From NCBI RefSeq assembly GCF_016811235.1, contig NZ_JAFBID010000002.1, forward strand, positions 1 to 64,000: DNA of 64,000 bases, in the 5' to 3' direction. Every line of letters begins with the position of its first letter. Position 1 is the first letter of the stretch. The stretch is from Microvirga arabica. GTDB taxonomy: Bacteria > Pseudomonadota > Alphaproteobacteria > Rhizobiales > Beijerinckiaceae. Below, piece after piece: positions 4,923-29,400 of the stretch. The notes beneath the pieces are model-generated. The model ran no database searches. It was not told the origin of the DNA and saw only the letters and a program-made list of their open reading frames with translations. The position numbers and the translations under genes were made by a program.

Positions 4923-5007
4923 GAGAAACTTTATCCTCTTCACGTTATCATCGGCCTTGTGCTGGTGATCTCGATTGCATGAAACGCTGGAGTCTCTCAG
5001 CATCGAA

Positions 5008-5030
5008 ATGGCCGGATCAAGTCCGGCCAT
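5008..5030. terminator. Hairpin between convergent recR and sensor kinase genes
   Basis: Perfect 9-bp stem ATGGCCGGA/TCCGGCCAT with loop TCAAG. It sits between two convergent genes and could serve as a bidirectional stop, but it lacks a clear T-run, so it may only be a repeat. Confidence 0.4.
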
Positions 5031-5044
5031 GACCGCGTGGAACT

Positions 5045-6631
5045 TCACGCCGGAATGTCGAGCCGGAACACCGTGCCGCCCTCGGCCGTGAGGCTGAACT
5101 GGCCTCCGAGCTGCTGAGCGAAGGATCGGATGAGCTTCATGCCCAGCGACGAGGCATTGTCCGGCACATCCGACACGCCCTTGCCCGTATCACGAACGAC
5201 AATTTCGATCCGGCCGTCGATTCTGTGCGCCGAGACAAGAATGCTCCCGCCTTCGCCCGGTCCGAAGGCATGCTTGAACGCATTGGAAATCGCCTCTGTC
5301 ACGGCGAGCGCCAGCGGAGCGCCGCGGTCGAGATCGATCATGATCGGTTCGGCATCGAGGTCCACCGCAATCCCCCGGGCAGCCGCCCCATAAGTGGCGG
5401 ACAACTCGTGGATGAGTCGGCCAAGATAGTCCTGCAGATCGATCGTGCCGCCCGTATCCTTTCTGTAGAGGATGTCATGGATCAATCCGATGGAGCGCAG
5501 ACGGTCCTGCGTCTCCTGAAAGGCCGATTTAACGCCTGGATCCGAGAAGCGGCGGGCCTGCATCTGCAACAGGCTCGACGTGACCTGCAGGTTGTTCTTC
5601 ACCCGATGATGGATTTCCTGCAGCAGCATGACCTTGTCGGAAAGCGCCTTGCCGAGGCTCTCGTTCGCCAGCTGCAATTCCTTCTGCGTGGCCTCGGTCT
5701 GGTGGCTGAGCCGCACCCCGATCCAGGTGAGCCAGCAGAGCGCGACCAGCACGATGGCCGTGATCCCGGCGCTCCAGTAGAAGCCGGTCCTCCAGGCTGC
5801 CAGGGCCGTTGCCACCGGCACGCTGGCCGTGACGGTAACCGGCCAGCGCTCCAGGCGGCGGAAGGAGATGATGCGCTCGACGCCGTCCCCCATATCGTTG
5901 GCGCGGTAGGTTCCGCTGCGCTGTCCCTCCATCTCGTTGAAGAGCGCCGTGTGGCTGACGCCCGTGTCCGTCTGGTTCGGCGCGAGACCGGTGCGCGCAA
6001 TGACGCGGCCATCTCGGCCCCAGAGACCGAGAATGACGTTGTCATCCTCGATGTCGGGCCGTGAAATCTCCTGCAGGAAGGCCGGGCGCAGGGCGACTTG
6101 CGCGACTCCGTCGAAATCGCCGTTCAGATCGGGAATGCGCCGGGAATAGGTATAGAGGATTTCCTTGGCGAGCCGGCCGACGATGGCGCCGCCCACGAAG
6201 CTTTCAGCCCCGGCTCGGTGGGCCTTGAACCAGGACCGATCCGCAAAGCTCACTGAATCCCCCAGCTGCGGGATCGATACACCGACCACTTTGCTGTCCC
6301 GGTCGATGATCAGGAACAAATCGCTGGCGGAGGATCTCTGCGTCAATCCGGCGAGATACTGGCTGGCGTCGGTCGTTTCGCTCAAGGCGCCCACACCGCC
6401 TCTCAGACGCACATAGGCGATGATGTCGTTGAGAAGGAGGTCGCTCGTCTCCAGGGTTCGCTTGGCATATTCCTCCATCAGGAGAGCGAGATCCTGCGTG
6501 GCCGCCTCGGCGCGATGTAAGGCGCTGCGGTATTCAAGCCACAGGAACGCCCCCCTGATCCCGATCACGGCCACGGCGAACAGAATCGCCGTGGCGTAGA
6601 GTACGCTGCGCATATCGCGGACGGGGATCAT
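5045..6631 (-). CDS. Membrane sensor histidine kinase, HisKA_2 type
   Basis: A 528-residue kinase with TM1 at about 9-31, a periplasmic dCache-like sensor region at about 35-280, TM2 at about 286-308, then a DHp segment carrying EIHHRVKNNLQ with the phosphoacceptor histidine at 341/342, and a HATPase domain (N box TEAISNAFKHAF, G box DTGKGVSD). The HHRVKNNLQ form is HisKA_2, a type often found in general-stress and light-sensing kinases of alphaproteobacteria. No response regulator is adjacent, so the partner and signal are unknown. ATG 6631 is followed by a second ATG at 6613. Confidence 0.9.
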   Translation of the reverse strand: MIPVRDMRSVLYATAILFAVAVIGIRGAFLWLEYRSALHRAEAATQDLALLMEEYAKRTLETSDLLLNDIIAYVRLRGGVGALSETTDASQYLAGLTQRSSASDLFLIIDRDSKVVGVSIPQLGDSVSFADRSWFKAHRAGAESFVGGAIVGRLAKEILYTYSRRIPDLNGDFDGVAQVALRPAFLQEISRPDIEDDNVILGLWGRDGRVIARTGLAPNQTDTGVSHTALFNEMEGQRSGTYRANDMGDGVERIISFRRLERWPVTVTASVPVATALAAWRTGFYWSAGITAIVLVALCWLTWIGVRLSHQTEATQKELQLANESLGKALSDKVMLLQEIHHRVKNNLQVTSSLLQMQARRFSDPGVKSAFQETQDRLRSIGLIHDILYRKDTGGTIDLQDYLGRLIHELSATYGAAARGIAVDLDAEPIMIDLDRGAPLALAVTEAISNAFKHAFGPGEGGSILVSAHRIDGRIEIVVRDTGKGVSDVPDNASSLGMKLIRSFAQQLGGQFSLTAEGGTVFRLDIPA

Positions 6632-6784
6632 TCGGCGGGAGCTCAGGTCCGAGGCTGTGGGCGGAACGGGTGCAGACAGGACCCTATGCTACGCCGTTGT
6701 CCGGTGTCCATATCATAGATCAGGTGACAGGCCCGCGCCCCGTTGCTAATCAGGCGGCAACGAAACCCTTGCTCCGAGCTTCTC

Positions 6785-7630
6785 ATGTCCACCACCGACC
6801 TCGCCCATACGATCGATGCCGCCTGGGAAGACCGGGCCAATGTCAGCCCCACCACGACGGGCGCCGTGCGCGAGGCCGTGGAAGAGGCCATGAGCCTGCT
6901 CGATTCCGGCAAGGCCCGTGTGGCCGAAAAGACGGCCGGCGGGGAGTGGCAGGTCCATCAATGGCTGAAGAAGGCCGTGCTGCTCTCCTTCCGTCTCAAC
7001 GACATGGAAGTGATCGGCGGCGGGCCGGGCGAGGCCACCTGGTGGGACAAGGTGCCGTCCAAGTTCGCTGGCTGGGGCGAGAACCGCTTTCGTGCTGCCG
7101 GTTTTCGCGCCGTGCCGAACTGCACCGTGCGCCGCGGCGCCTATATCGCGCCCGGCGTGGTGCTGATGCCGTCCTTCGTCAACCTCGGCGCCTATGTGGA
7201 CGAGAACACCATGGTCGACACCTGGGCGACGGTGGGCTCCTGCGCCCAGATCGGCAAGAACGTGCACCTCTCCGGCGGCGTCGGCATCGGCGGCGTGCTG
7301 GAGCCGCTCCAGGCCAATCCCACCATCATCGAGGACAACTGCTTCATCGGCGCCCGCTCCGAGGTGGTGGAAGGCGTGGTCGTGGGCGAAGGCTCGGTGC
7401 TCTCCATGGGCGTGTTCCTCTCAGCCTCCACCAAGATCATCGACCGCAACACCGGCGAGGTTTTTGTGGGTCGCGTGCCGCCGTACTCGGTCGTCGTCCC
7501 CGGCTCGCTTCCCGGAAAGCCGCTCCCGGACGGCACCCCGGGTCCATCCCTCTACTGCGCCGTCATCGTGAAGCGCGTCGACGCCCAGACGCGGGCGAAG
7601 ACCGGCATCAACGAGCTGCTGCGCGACTGA
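6785..7630 (+). CDS. dapD: 2,3,4,5-tetrahydropyridine-2,6-dicarboxylate N-succinyltransferase
   Basis: Transfers succinyl from succinyl-CoA to tetrahydrodipicolinate in lysine and meso-diaminopimelate synthesis. The 281-residue length fits the family. It has the helical N-terminus, then a left-handed beta-helix of hexapeptide repeats from about residue 115 ([20 protein letters not shown]), with the active-site stretch [23 protein letters not shown] 6785 ([10 protein letters not shown]) fits homologues; an upstream 14-codon extension is unlikely. dapE follows after 4 bp, so the two steps are co-expressed. Confidence 0.96.
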
Positions 7631-7634
7631 TCCG

Positions 7635-8798
7635 ATGGAACCCTCGCCTCTCTTTCTCGCCCAATCGCTCCTGCGCTGCCCCTCCGTGACGCCGGAGGAG
7701 GGCGGGGCGCTCGCCTTCATCGAAGGCGTGCTGAAGGAGGCAGGGTTCGAGGTGCACCGGCCGGTCTTTTCCGAGCCCGGTACTCCGGATGTCGAGAACC
7801 TCTATGCCCGATATGGATCAGACGAGCCCTATTTGCTCTTTGCTGGCCACACCGATGTGGTCCCGCCCGGCGATGCGAGCCGCTGGAGCCATGACCCGTT
7901 CAGCGGCGAGATTCACGGCGGCGAGCTCTACGGGCGCGGCGCCGTCGACATGAAGGGCGGCATCGCCTGCATGATGGCGGCGGCGCTCGACTTCATCCAC
8001 GGCGATCCCGGGTTTAAGGGCTCCATCGGCTTCCTCATCACGGGAGACGAGGAGGGGCCAGCCATCAACGGCACGGTCAAGCTGCTCGAATGGGCGAAAG
8101 GCCGCGGCGAGCGCTTCGACCACTGCATCCTGGGCGAGCCCACCAACCCGAACCAGCTCGGCGACATGATCAAGATCGGCCGGCGCGGCTCGCTGACAGG
8201 CCGGATCGTCGTCGAGGGCTGCCAAGGGCACGTGGCCTATCCGCATCTGGCGGACAACCCGATTCCCGGGATGATGCGCCTGCTCTCAGGGCTGCTCAGC
8301 GAGCCGCTCGATCACGGCACGGAGCATTTCGACGCCTCGAACCTTGAGGTGACCACGGTCGATGTGGGCAACCCAGCCTCCAATGTCATCCCAGCCGAGG
8401 CGCGAGCAACGTTCAACATCCGCTTCAACGATCTCTGGACACCCCAAAGCCTGGAGGAGGAGATCGACCGCCGCCTGCGCGAGGCTGCCGGCAACACGGT
8501 GCGCTACCGCCTCACGATGGACCCGACCAATGCGGTTGCCTTCCTGACCCCGCCGAATGCCTTCGTGGGTTTCGTCGCAGACGCCATCAAGGCCGAGACC
8601 GGCTTTCAGCCGAAGCTCTCCACCACGGGCGGCACGTCGGACGCTCGCTTCATTGTGAAGGATTGCCCGGTGGTGGAGTTCGGCCTCGTCGGCCAGACCA
8701 TGCACCAGATCGACGAGCGGGTGCCCGTGGCCGATCTGGATCGTTTGACAGGGATTTACCGCAAGGTGCTCGACGCCTACTTCGCGGCCGCATCCTGA
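7635..8798 (+). CDS. dapE: Succinyl-diaminopimelate desuccinylase
   Basis: M20-family di-zinc hydrolase that removes succinate from N-succinyl-LL-diaminopimelate, giving LL-DAP for lysine and peptidoglycan. The 387-residue protein has the zinc-ligand motifs [34 protein letters not shown] and LGEPTN, and a late [11 protein letters not shown] with the last metal ligand. It is immediately downstream of dapD and probably translated from the same mRNA. Confidence 0.96.
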
Positions 8799-14952: not shown

Positions 14953-15056
14953 AGCATCGGACCCAAAAGTGGAACCCACTTTTGGGATCTATTCGATGCT
15001 TAACTCTTTGAAGAGCGCATCGTGTGGACCGGACCCAGAGGGCCGCACGATGCGCT
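14953..15056. repeat. Two-module mosaic palindromic repeat
   Basis: Module 1 (14953-15000) begins AGCATCGGACCCAAAAGTGG and folds back through CCACTTTTGGG to CGATGCT. Module 2 (15014-15056) has arms AGCGCATCGTG and CACGATGCGCT and contains GGACCCAGAGGGCCGC. It abuts the argB stop codon. The same modules occur at 28048-28175 and 44594-44745. Confidence 0.8.
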
Positions 15057-21510: not shown

Positions 21511-22305
21511 GTGGCCCAGATACATCCGAAGACGGAGAGCCCGAAACAGGCCGGCCGTATCTGGCGCATAGTGCCCCTGGCGCTCATCCTGATTGCGATC
21601 GGAGCCGTCTTCGCAACGGGTGTTCACCGCTCCCTCACGCTCGAGACCTTCGTGCATTATCAGGCTTGGCTTCGGGATCTTGTGGCCGCCCACGGCCCGG
21701 CGATGCTTGGCCTTTACGGCCTGATATATGTGGCGGCCGTCACCCTCTCGCTGCCGGCTTCCGCCTTTCTGACCGCCATCGGGGGGTATCTCTTCGGCTG
21801 GCCGCTTGGAGGCATTACGGCCAACTTGGCCGCAACACTCGGCGCGACCAATATCTTTCTTATCGCCCGGTCGTCACTAGGACGCCCTCTGCTCGAGCGG
21901 GCGGGCTCCCGCATCCAGAGCCTTGCGGAAGGCTTCCGGAAGCAATCCTTTCTCTATCTGCTCTCCCTTCGCCTGATCCCCGTGGTGCCGTTCTGGCTCA
22001 CGAATCTGGCTGCGGCCTTCTTCGGCATGCGCCTGAGGCCCTTCGTCCTGGCAACCCAGCTCGGGATGCTGCCGGCGTCGTTCGCCTTCGCTCTGGCCGG
22101 ATCGGGGCTGGATGAGATCATCGCGAAGCATGAGCGGCAGCGTGCCGAGTGCCTGGCCGTGGGGCGCAGCGATTGTGCCATTGACTTCAATGCCAAAAGC
22201 CTGTTGACGCCCGAGCTGATGACTGCTCTCGCTCTGCTCGGAATATTGGCGCTGATCCCGATTGCGCTCAAGCAATGGCGCCGTCGCAAAGCGGGCGAGA
22301 GCTGA
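21511..22305 (+). CDS. TVP38/TMEM64 family membrane protein
   Basis: A 264-residue multi-pass membrane protein. The SNARE-associated/DedA-like domain is seen in SLPASAFLTAIGGYLFGWPLGG and LRLIPVVPFWLTNLAAAFFGM. The start is a GTG at 21511 with AGGAGG 4 bases upstream. The stop overlaps the next ATG (TGATG), so it is coupled to the reductase-like gene; the pairing of a TVP38 protein with a mercuric-reductase-like flavoprotein recurs in bacteria. The substrate is unknown. Confidence 0.9.
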   Translation: MAQIHPKTESPKQAGRIWRIVPLALILIAIGAVFATGVHRSLTLETFVHYQAWLRDLVAAHGPAMLGLYGLIYVAAVTLSLPASAFLTAIGGYLFGWPLGGITANLAATLGATNIFLIARSSLGRPLLERAGSRIQSLAEGFRKQSFLYLLSLRLIPVVPFWLTNLAAAFFGMRLRPFVLATQLGMLPASFAFALAGSGLDEIIAKHERQRAECLAVGRSDCAIDFNAKSLLTPELMTALALLGILALIPIALKQWRRRKAGES

Positions 22306-23762
22306 TGATGAAGCTGACGGACCAACAGGGCAGGCGCGTCTTGCAGCCCGATCTCTGCGTCATCGGCGCCGGCTCGGCCGGCCTGTCGGTCGCGTCCATC
22401 GCGGCCTCCCTCGGGGCATCCGTGGTGCTGATCGAGAAGAACAGGATGGGCGGAGATTGCCTGAACGTGGGCTGCGTTCCCTCTAAGGCGCTGATCGCCG
22501 CGTCTCTCCATGCTCGCGCCACGCGCGAAGCGGGAGATTTCGGAATCGGGGCAGGGGAGCCCATCGTCGACTTCACCAAGGTCCATGCGCATGTGAAGGG
22601 CGCCATTGCGGCCATCGCCCCTATGGACTCGACGGAGCGCTACCAGGCCATGGGGGTGTCGGTGATCGCAGGCGAAGCCCGGTTCGCGGATGCCCATACG
22701 GTTGTCGCCGGCGACCGGATTATCCGGGCCCGCCGCTTCGTCATCGCGACCGGCTCCCGCCCGGCCGTCCCGTCGATTCGCGGACTTGATCAGATCCCCT
22801 ATCTGACCAACGAAACCATCTTCGATCTGGCCGAGAAGCCCGCGCATCTCGTTGTGATCGGCGGCGGCGCCGTAGGGGTCGAAATTGCTCAGGCCTATCG
22901 GATGCTGGGTGCCCAGGTCACGCTCCTGGAGGCCGGCGAGCGCCTCCTGGCGCAGGAAGATCCCGAGATGGCGGGCGTCGTCGACCAGGCTCTCAGGTCG
23001 GACGGGGTTGCCGTCAGAACCGGAGCCTCCATCGAAAGGATCGAACCGGCGAAAGCGGGGGGCTTTGCTGTCGTCCTCAGCACCGGCGAGAGCATCGACG
23101 GAAGCCATCTGCTCGTCGCCACGGGACGCAAGCCCGTCGTGGATGGGGTAGCCCTTGAGGCTGCGGGGATCGCGTCCGACGCCTCGGGTATTCTGGTCGA
23201 TAGAGGGCTTAGAACCTCCAACCGGCGCGTCTATGCCATTGGCGATTGCGCGGGCGGGGCAGGCAAGGGCGCCCGGTTCACCCATGTGGCGAACCATCAT
23301 GCGGGCCTGGTGATCCGGAACGCCCTGTTCCGGCTCCCCGTCCGCGTCGGGAAGGCCCCCATTCCCCGCGTGACCTATACTGCGCCGGAGCTGGCCTCCG
23401 TCGGACTGACGGAGGCGCAGGTCCGGGAACAGCATGGCACCATCCGCATCCTGCGCTGGGCCTTTGCCGACAACGACAGGGCCCGCACGGAAAGACAGAC
23501 CGAAGGGCATGTGAAGGCCGTGGTCACCCCGCGCGGCCGGATCCTGGGCTGCTCCATCGTCGGGGCGCATGCCGGGGAACTCATCATGCCGTGGGTTCTG
23601 GCCATGAGCCGCGGCATGAAGGTTTCCCATCTCGCCGGGTTGATTTATCCCTACCCTACATTTTCCGAGGTGACGAAGAGCACGGCGGTGGAGTTTCTCA
23701 AGCCTTCGGCTCAGAATCCCTGGGTGCGGCGGCTGGTGTCCCTGGTCCGCCGCTTGGGATAA
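22305..23762 (+). CDS. Mercuric-reductase-like FAD-dependent disulfide oxidoreductase
   Basis: A 485-residue class I pyridine nucleotide-disulfide reductase. It has the FAD-binding VIGAGSAGLSVA, the redox pair in GGDCLNVGCVPSK, the NAD-binding VIGGGAVGVEIAQ, a YAIGDCAG motif and the dimerisation domain. It lacks the N-terminal metal-binding domain and the C-terminal cysteine pair of true MerA, so mercury reduction should not be assumed. It is coupled to the TVP38 gene before it and 8 bp ahead of a histidine kinase. Confidence 0.9.
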   Translation: MMKLTDQQGRRVLQPDLCVIGAGSAGLSVASIAASLGASVVLIEKNRMGGDCLNVGCVPSKALIAASLHARATREAGDFGIGAGEPIVDFTKVHAHVKGAIAAIAPMDSTERYQAMGVSVIAGEARFADAHTVVAGDRIIRARRFVIATGSRPAVPSIRGLDQIPYLTNETIFDLAEKPAHLVVIGGGAVGVEIAQAYRMLGAQVTLLEAGERLLAQEDPEMAGVVDQALRSDGVAVRTGASIERIEPAKAGGFAVVLSTGESIDGSHLLVATGRKPVVDGVALEAAGIASDASGILVDRGLRTSNRRVYAIGDCAGGAGKGARFTHVANHHAGLVIRNALFRLPVRVGKAPIPRVTYTAPELASVGLTEAQVREQHGTIRILRWAFADNDRARTERQTEGHVKAVVTPRGRILGCSIVGAHAGELIMPWVLAMSRGMKVSHLAGLIYPYPTFSEVTKSTAVEFLKPSAQNPWVRRLVSLVRRLG

Positions 23763-27087: not shown

Positions 27088-27336
27088 TCAGTGGCGATTG
27101 GCCGGGCAAGGCGTGACGGCCGTGTTCAGGGTGAGCCGCATGGAGCCCGACGGGGTGATGTCGAGTGCGGCTTCCATGGCGGCCGGATCTTCGATCAGAT
27201 GCACGAAGGCCAGAAGCCTCAGCCGCACGATCGGCGGCAGCTGGGAGAGGTAGGCCGCCAGCGTCTGGGTGGTTCCTTCAGCCATCTCCTCGTGAACGAA
27301 AGAGGTTACAGGAGGGATCTCGTCAGGCAGCGACAT
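27088..27336 (-). CDS. Small hypothetical protein coupled to luxI
   Basis: An 82-residue protein (MSLPDEIPPVTSFVHEEMAE...) whose start overlaps the 3' end of the luxI reading frame by 14 bp. It is mostly helical-looking with no known motif. The overlap suggests it was translated with luxI. I recall small coupled genes after luxI in methylobacteria, but I cannot confirm homology here. Confidence 0.6.
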   Translation of the reverse strand: MSLPDEIPPVTSFVHEEMAEGTTQTLAAYLSQLPPIVRLRLLAFVHLIEDPAAMEAALDITPSGSMRLTLNTAVTPCPANRH

Positions 27337-27967
27337 GGGGCACCCGATCGGTAAAGGTGGAGGTGCCGGTGGCGCGGACCAGGCACGAGCCGCGCAGGCC
27401 CGCGAGTCTGCTCACATGCCTCAGGCTGTTCTCCGAAATCTGAATGGCGGCCGCGATGCAGGGCTGGTCTTCGATCATGGTCGGCAGACCCAAGGGGCGG
27501 ACCTCGAAACCTGCCTGCTGCCAGCGCGGCAGCCACCACATCTCGACCACGGCGGTCACCTCCGTAATGCCTTCCTCGAGACAGAATTGCTGAAAGGCTG
27601 CCAGAAGGCGGCAATCCGTGCGGCCCATGCGCCGCTCCCTGACGATGAAGTACCGGGTGCATTCGAGAATTGCGGACCCGGACAGCACGTCGCGGCCTTT
27701 GACCAAGTGGGCAAAGGACTCGCTAATCATGTGCGGCAGCAGAGTCGGCTAGAGCCTCAGGCCCCCAATGACACGCCCGTTATCGAGCGCGACCAGATAG
27801 GTCGCTTGGTCATTGTCATAAGCATCCACATCCCGCCCGTCAGGGCGTTCGAGGTCGCGCCATCCGCGCTCGCCCACGAAGATTTCGTGCCTCAGGCGGA
27901 AATATTCGTCGAGGATCGCTTCATATGCATCTTTGTTCTCGTCGGTGATGACGTGAATTGAGGTCAT
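27323..27967 (-). pseudogene. luxI: LuxI-type acyl-homoserine-lactone synthase, interrupted by an in-frame TAG
   Basis: Reading from ATG 27967 gives 72 residues with the LuxI core: FRLRHEIFVGERGW, then DAYDND and GRVIGGLRL, matching the conserved Arg, Phe, Trp and Asp positions. Codon 73 is TAG (27751-27749). The same frame continues without shift as PTLLPHMISESFAHL and runs to a normal LuxI C-terminus; total length would be 214 residues. Homologues read RLLPT at this point, so a TTG-to-TAG change is the simplest history. The downstream half alone lacks the catalytic N-terminus. Readthrough or a sequencing error is possible. Confidence 0.88.
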
Positions 27968-28047
27968 ACCCCATGCCCTCCTTTTTCTGGAGAGCAGTGT
28001 CCATGACCGGCCTGATTTGGATATTGTAGGAAATTACAGGTGCTTCT

Positions 28048-28175
28048 AGCGCATCGTGCGGACCCGGGGGCTGCGTTAGCGAAGAGCGGCTCCGGTTTTC
28101 CGCGCCCGACGATGCGCAGGTTGAAGGATTGAGCATCGGACCCAAAAGTGCAAATCCACTTTTGGGTCCGATGCT
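28048..28175. repeat. Two-module mosaic palindromic repeat
   Basis: Module 2 comes first (arms AGCGCATCGTGCG at 28048 and CGACGATGCGC ending near 28117), then module 1 (28132-28175) with near-perfect arms AGCATCGGACCCAAAAGTG and its complement. It lies between the broken luxR and luxI genes. The order of modules is reversed relative to 14953-15056. Confidence 0.8.
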
Positions 28176-28180
28176 CTGGG

Positions 28181-28929
28181 TCAGATCTCGATGAGCCGGT
28201 GCTGAAGCGCCCTGGCGACCGCGTGGGTCTTGTTGGCGGCGCTCAACTTGGCGCAGGCGCTGCCGATGTGAGCCGTAATCGTTCGCTCTGTCACGCCAAG
28301 GATCTCCCCGGTATCGGCCGCTGATTTCCCCAGCGCCGCCCAGCGCAGGGCTTCCCGCTCGCGGGCGGTCAGCGGGTTAGGACGCGGAGAGGGGCCCAGG
28401 ACGAGGCGGGCACGCTCGAAGGCGTACATGGCCATCAGGTGGATGGCGGGCTTGGTCTGGAGCGTCAGGTCAAGGTCGGCGCCGCCCATCGACAGGTAGG
28501 CCTCGAACCCGTTCAATCCATGAATGGGCAGGCAGTAGCCCTGCCGCATGCCGAAATCGGCAGCCCCGTGCATGACTTCCTTGCCTTTGGGGTTCGTCTC
28601 GGGATCGTAGCGGGCTTCACCCACTCGAAGGGCTGGACGGTCCGTCGGCACAGGCGGATCACGGGATCGTGTCGGTCGTAGCTGTTCCGGGTGTAGCGCT
28701 CGTACCAGCCCAGAGGCCACTTCTTGAGCAGGACCAGGCTTTCGATCCGCTGCTCCGGGTGCGGCAGCCCGGTCATGATGAAGCTCTCGAACCCGAACTG
28801 GGCAAAGGAGCGCTCCATCGCATCGATGATCGCCTGCGGCGTTGCCAGGCGGTCGAGCTCTTCGATGAGCTCGAAAGCATGTACCGTATGGTCAAGGCTG
28901 CGGCCGCTCAAGGGCGTCTCCCAGGTCAT
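28181..28929 (-). pseudogene. luxR: LuxR-type autoinducer regulator with a one-base frameshift
   Basis: The 5' frame (ATG 28929) encodes an autoinducer-binding domain through TVQPFEW. The other frame resumes at GEARYDPETNPKGKEVM and continues to a LuxR helix-turn-helix (LTAREREALRWAALGKS, then TERTITAHIGSACAKL). The break falls at about 28616-28623, where adding one base (for example a fourth G in TGGG) restores TGG-GGT-GAA and a 249-residue protein of normal LuxR size. Either a real mutation or a short-homopolymer sequencing error. It lies upstream of luxI on the same strand. Confidence 0.85.
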
Positions 28930-29025: not shown

Positions 29026-29400
29026 TTGCAAAAGAAGGCGCCTACCCACATCGGCAGCCGGGTGAGGGCCCGGCGGACCATGCTCGGCATGAGCCAGGAA
29101 CGGCTTGCGGATGCCTTGGGGCTTACCTTCCAGCAGGTCCAGAAATACGAGAAGGGCATGAACCGCATCGGCGCCAGCCGCCTGCTCCAGATTGCCGGCA
29201 TTCTCGATGTAAGCATCGAATTCTTCTTCGAGGGGCTTCCTGGCCTGCGGGCGGGCGGGTTCTCCGGGGACAGCCTCATGGCCGAGTTCCTGACCCGGTC
29301 GGAAAGCGACAGGCTCGTGCGGGGATTCCTGCGCCTGAAGGATGATGAAGCGCGCCGGAAGGTCGCCGACCTCGTCGACTGGCTCGCCTCCGTCGGCTAG
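29026..29400 (+). CDS. XRE-family helix-turn-helix regulator
   Basis: A 124-residue DNA-binding protein. The Cro/CI-type HTH is at about residues 9-62 (VRARRTMLGMSQERLADALGL, then QQVQKYEKGMNRI), followed by a short C-terminal helix. The style matches the rhizobial regulators that include PraR, some of which control quorum sensing. The start is TTG 29026 with AGGAG about 8 bases upstream; the first ATG is well inside the HTH. It is divergent from the luxR pseudogene. Confidence 0.85.
   Translation: MQKKAPTHIGSRVRARRTMLGMSQERLADALGLTFQQVQKYEKGMNRIGASRLLQIAGILDVSIEFFFEGLPGLRAGGFSGDSLMAEFLTRSESDRLVRGFLRLKDDEARRKVADLVDWLASVG

Follow-up and report, generated by a model that had tools for sequence, protein, structure and literature searches.

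Without LuxI, no AHL is made, and without LuxR, none is sensed. The synthases of solved structure closest to the gene considered here belong to the BjaI/RpaI group, whose members are reported to produce isovaleryl- and p-coumaroyl-HSL (PMC6107141). In Rhizobium, degraded systems are reported on both chromosomes and plasmids, in the form of pseudogenes of luxI or luxR, short remnants, or genes that lack their partner (PMC13133039). Quorum-sensing-null mutants are reported in P. aeruginosa, with disuse, public-goods exploitation, and regulon change given as scenarios of loss (PMC9600717). For Microvirga, a preprint proposes a transfer of luxI to myxobacteria (PMC12919014), and no account of luxI loss in the genus was found in the literature covered, which consisted of titles and abstract openings, with subscription papers largely outside its scope.

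The present locus lies in a window of 64,000 nucleotides, the whole stretch of DNA that was analysed, from a contig of Microvirga arabica (NZ_JAFBID010000002.1; genome label G000), a draft assembly of 6.67 Mb in 246 contigs. Its synthase gene carries a nonsense codon and its receptor gene a frameshift, and the pair has probably undergone a recent, genuine inactivation of LuxI/LuxR AHL quorum sensing. This case and the Rhizobium one (PMC13133039) are alike in their pseudogenised luxI/luxR. They differ in that, in Microvirga, six species each have their own lesion in the same orthologous locus, and in that both halves are hit in G000. Loss of AHL quorum sensing is of a kind already described in Rhizobium; the genus-level pattern in Microvirga is worth follow-up.

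The luxI and luxR lesions

luxI is read on the minus strand from an ATG at 27967 to 27323 and comprises 72 residues, a TAG, 141 residues, and a normal stop (214 codons counting the amber, 213 residues without it), in a single frame throughout. The N-terminal piece of 72 codons (27752..27967, minus strand) matches PF00765 (Autoind_synth) with an E-value of 2.5e-11 over profile positions 5-63. It is followed by the in-frame TAG at codon 73 (27749..27751) and by the C-terminal piece of 141 codons plus stop (27323..27748), for which the search, started at the ATG at 27730, returned an E-value of 1.4e-6 for 27326-27730 and profile positions 71-182. Both pieces separately pass the PF00765 cut-off. 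In the genome profile search, the whole stretch scored 5.5e-26 with '1 TAG' inside, and nothing else in the 6.67 Mb searched matched PF00765. With the family profile matched and the frame interrupted, the stretch is classed as a pseudogene of the PF00765 family. The preliminary description had read a LuxI-type frame from ATG 27967, with TAG as codon 73 at 27751-27749, no shift, and a normal C-terminal half past the stop, and in all of this it was right. Its proposed TTG-to-TAG change, from a Leu ancestor, does not agree with the 37 other orthologues in the genus, all of which have a sense codon in the amber column: Tyr in 36, Phe in one, and TAG in none.

Among solved structures, phmmer placed the N-terminal piece closest to 6wn0 (E 6.3e-22) and 5w8a (E 3.4e-21), and the C-terminal piece (27326-27748) closest to 5w8a (E 2.3e-29), so that these two are the closest solved relatives of both pieces. 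Their titles in the structure table are 'Autoinducer synthase' for 5w8a, which we take to be BjaI, and '4-coumaroyl-homoserine lactone synthase' for 6wn0, which we take to be RpaI. The BjaI/RpaI group is nearest by sequence, whereas luxI of G000 differs from it by the TAG at codon 73. Relatives of the C-terminal piece among named genomes came from Microvirga at 28 of 29 loci, the remaining one being from Salinarimonas.

The receptor gene upstream of luxI, whose damage went unmentioned in the preliminary description, is split over two frames on the minus strand. The N-terminal part, holding the start of the autoinducer-binding domain, occupies 28612..28929 (PF03472, E 9.3e-16 for 28516-28929; also tblastn to relatives). 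The C-terminal part, in the other frame, occupies 28184..28612 and holds the rest of the binding domain and the GerE helix-turn-helix (PF03472, E 4.7e-13; PF00196, E 1.2e-12). The net change is one base fewer near 28612, the exact base not being fixed: flanking residues are 11 nt apart in G000 vs. 12 nt in the 36 other orthologues of the genus, each of which is read in one frame. No intact receptor adjoins luxI, and the pair is accordingly incomplete. The luxR pieces are the only autoinducer-binding domain matches in the genome, and no stand-in second luxI or LuxR solo was found in G000 by the PF00765 and autoinducer-binding domain searches. Both halves of the sole AHL circuit found in this genome are damaged. 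As no other gene of either kind was found in the genome, we infer that the strain would neither produce an AHL of its own nor respond to it.

A divergent HTH_3 regulator (hth; 29026..29400, plus strand; PF01381, E 9.7e-14) adjoins luxR, lies beside it in relatives as well, and is intact in G000. Two-frame matches to hth beside luxR are seen in three relatives (L004, L019, and L023). The gap between luxI and luxR contains a multicopy intergenic repeat with an inverted-repeat core (28040..28185, borders approximate), recognised by genome self-search; the query 28030-28185 gave 73 matching pieces in the G000 genome, itself included. The repeat also occurs at 14954 in the window. The luxI-luxR gap is long too in L009 and L023.

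Immediately downstream, orf82 (27088..27336, minus strand) is an intact ORF of 82 aa whose start overlaps the end of luxI, and it follows luxI in 38 of 38 orthologue genomes. Searches of Pfam and NCBIfam at E 0.01 assigned it to no family. In a family draw, it was present in 19 of 298 genomes, all 19 of them Microvirga.

Readthrough, split synthase, and assembly error

Programmed or suppressed readthrough of the amber codon would yield low-level full-length LuxI, and the lack of decay in the frame beyond the TAG is what this explanation would lead one to expect. However, a stop at this position is shared by none of the 37 other orthologues, and RF1 was found in G000. TAG is also the terminal stop of 10 of the 45 conserved window genes described below. 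A dedicated UAG-reading tRNA, for which the preliminary description had proposed a genome-wide search, was not found: none of the 58 tRNA-model matches in the G000 genome has a CUA anticodon (ARAGORN read the anticodons of 55, and the remaining three have UUU anticodon loops). Moreover, luxR is frameshifted regardless. Programmed readthrough, for which neither a conserved stop nor a CUA tRNA was found, is unsupported, and programmed or suppressed readthrough is very improbable. The three matches uncalled by ARAGORN (L144, L145, and L146) are tRNA-Lys(UUU)-like stretches with good 3' halves; they look like damaged tRNA-Lys copies or 3' fragments and are possibly mobile-element integration scars.

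A split synthase, in which translation restarts at ATG 27730 and the resulting 135-aa piece joins the 72-aa piece in an active enzyme, is likewise very improbable. LuxI-family synthases form a single GNAT-like fold, and the two pieces would divide it. The in-frame ATG 18 nt past the TAG and the PF00765 match of both pieces are consistent with such an enzyme, as is the frameshift in G039, at most about four codons away from the amber codon. Yet chance alone would put one of the five other luxI lesions in the genus that close with a probability of 0.19, or roughly one in five; the remaining four are at other positions, and here too the receptor is broken.

If instead the preferred reading of a genuine loss is kept, its age can be judged from the rates of change. 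Pairwise dN/dS of the luxI pieces is 0.09-0.16 for G000 vs. six relatives and 0.07-0.25 among the relatives, and private replacement changes number 3 in G000 vs. 1-11 in the six. The break looks recent because luxI bears no sign of relaxed selection; for the same reason, inactivity of the gene cannot be demonstrated from the protein sequence by itself. In luxR, two G000 pairs (0.155 and 0.145) exceed all relative pairs (0.03-0.115) over the N-terminal part, the C-terminal part is unremarkable (0.06-0.11 for G000 vs. 0.05-0.12), and private replacement changes number 6 in G000 vs. 1-7 in relatives. The receptor may have been relaxed for longer than the synthase, although these numbers are small, and any order given to the two lesions is conditional on them. 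Old decay of luxI was considered and rejected: relaxed selection was sought and not seen, with a slight rise in the N-terminal part of luxR only.

The lack of decay in luxI, the stop aside, would also fit an error of sequencing or assembly at one of the two sites or at both, with the gene pair intact in the cell. The draft state of the assembly, in 246 contigs, and the multicopy repeat between luxI and luxR point the same way. Against an error stand the other genes of the window. From the sister genome G031, 67 conserved ORFs were taken and compared with the window, frameshifts being sought at this step; 12 had no match, one had a 24% match only, and 54 matched with good identity. Six of the 54 were flagged. 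Two were luxI and luxR, two were frames extended at the 5' end (those of yidC and orf82), and the last two, A23 and A189, we regard as shadow or overlapping ORFs. From the 48 unflagged ORFs, six small or overlapping ones that we took for shadows (A15, A18, A134, A182, A192, and A290) were set aside; the rest were joined by yidC cut back to its start, orf82 read in its proper frame, and the gene at 22275-23759 to give a hand-made list of 45 genes. The stop check found no internal stops in this list, which spans 35,790 nt. On the 35,790 nt of coding sequence of the 45 genes plus luxI and luxR, two random lesions would both fall in luxI/luxR with a probability of about 0.0014, a value reckoned after the fact. 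Up to 12 bases from each site, a single base is repeated at most three times in a row at the luxR junction and at most twice at the TAG. Finally, luxI is also broken in five other genomes, whose assemblies are likewise unchecked. An error is unlikely since the two accepted lesions among the compared window genes are the two halves of one functional pair, and their placement within the window argues for a loss linked to function. Of the three options in the preliminary description, fresh loss is the best supported, readthrough lacks support, and sequencing error is unlikely.

luxI breaks across Microvirga

The genome collections hold one genome per species. PF00765 has a match in 44 of 48 Microvirga genomes, and the orthologue of this luxI is present in 38 of 48, with luxR upstream in 37 of the 38; the exception is G045, whose luxI contig is short and whose genome search yielded no luxR orthologue. 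Of the 38 luxI orthologues, six are broken, by six different lesions, each in one genome only. Three are nonsense codons (TAG at codon 73 in G000, TAA at codon 21 in G025, and TGA at codon 128 in G019), and three are frameshifts (G014, G039, and G045). As the six lesions differ, they represent separate events. An intact LuxI-type synthase is missing from 10 of 48 genomes once the four without any PF00765 match are included. A tree of five neighbour genes, which covers part of the 48 genomes and excludes rows with fewer than three of the five genes (L054, L071, L075, and L076), places five of the six luxI lesions at separate tips, G045 being too incomplete; two of these tips (L037 and L058) fall within one weakly resolved clade that has intact members. 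In this tree, the window and BT688, an intact strain, form a pair with a support of 0.87. The best reading of these data is a recurrent, recent loss of AHL quorum sensing in Microvirga.

This pattern resembles the quorum-sensing-null mutants of P. aeruginosa in its repeated loss-of-function mutation. In the abstract of the P. aeruginosa account, however, the LasR receptor is singled out (PMC9600717), whereas in Microvirga the synthase is broken oftener (6 of 38 luxI vs. 2 of 37 luxR orthologues), and the losses occur across species, not within one. In L066 (G047), a nodA-positive genome with intact luxI, luxR has an in-frame TAG, which is codon 127 in the aligned span.

At 28 named Microvirga loci, luxI had 4 breaks in 5,964 codons, and eight neighbour genes, used as controls, together had 1 in 34,439 (binomial p 0.002). 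The p-value becomes 0.009 when hth is taken as an additional control, and is the same when luxR is taken too; of 27 named loci, hth is broken in 2 and luxR in 1, and neither is among the eight controls. This comparison left out matches with less than 70% coverage or less than 45% identity, so that badly damaged copies would be missed, and omitted uvsE, for which no orthologues were obtained; one luxI frameshift (L045), falling between the two query pieces, was added from the genus orthologue survey (there L061). For a control oxidoreductase at 22275-23762, no internal stop was present in 23 matches of at least 57% identity from 22 genomes, and a 24th match (G046, 62% identity) covers residues 228-484 only, as a truncated gene or a contig end would. 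The counts for hth and luxR suggest that weak upkeep may extend beyond luxI to the hth-luxR-luxI block as a whole.

In three genomes (G003, G040, and G012), the syntenic site has glsB, yciF, orf82, and the downstream genes, and hth, luxR, and luxI gave no match there at E 1e-4. The tree is compatible with both loss and original absence at these sites, which indicate that orf82 can exist without luxI. The gene is broken in 0 of 38 genomes (matched part; stops and shifts), a weak lead, and is too short to show excess survival. Its dN/dS is 0.20-0.38 for G000 vs. 0.09-0.36 for relatives, and private replacement changes number 4 in G000 vs. 0-6 in relatives. Another stretch of G012 (L163, about 4986-8473) carries relatives of orf82 (weak) and of hth together with a divergent luxR, close to a second luxI that is likewise divergent. 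The four-gene set of hth, luxR, luxI, and orf82 may exist as a paralogous copy in that genome.

Among genomes with the locus, lesions in luxI or luxR were found in 4 of 7 that are nodA-positive vs. 3 of 31 that are nodA-negative (Fisher p 0.013), and luxI lesions alone in 3 of 7 vs. 3 of 31 (p 0.063); the test was chosen after seeing the data, ignores kinship, and left out an eighth nodA-positive genome, G046, which has no luxI orthologue. A higher frequency of luxI/luxR lesions in nodA-carrying species is, on these counts, a weak lead. G000 itself was searched for nodA, without a match, and for nifH, where nothing passed the cut-off.

Implications of the probable repeated loss

The six different luxI losses, each in a single genome, suggest that null mutants recur and spread. 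Such mutants would arise and spread repeatedly through disuse, social exploitation, or cultivation; a change in culture is a scenario that we add to the P. aeruginosa list and that may apply here. With one genome of the species at hand, the lesions in G000 may be fixed, rare, or a laboratory change.

A broader proposal, which we hold tentatively and consider doubtful as a whole, is that Microvirga recurrently loses its main AHL synthase at the tips of the tree, that this loss is favoured in legume-nodulating lineages, and that the luxI-coupled orf82 is invariably retained and has a separate function. If this were true, AHL signalling would be a turnover trait: null mutants would win locally, and lineages that had lost the signal would not last.

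Taken alone, the locus in M. arabica is one more quorum-sensing pseudogene pair. An AHL-synthase domain match in a Microvirga genome does not mean that the signal is made. With six breaks in 38 orthologues and mostly intact neighbours, Microvirga is a usable natural system for studying why bacteria discard cell-density signalling, and its pattern of losses also lets one ask whether life in root nodules favours the loss of signalling.
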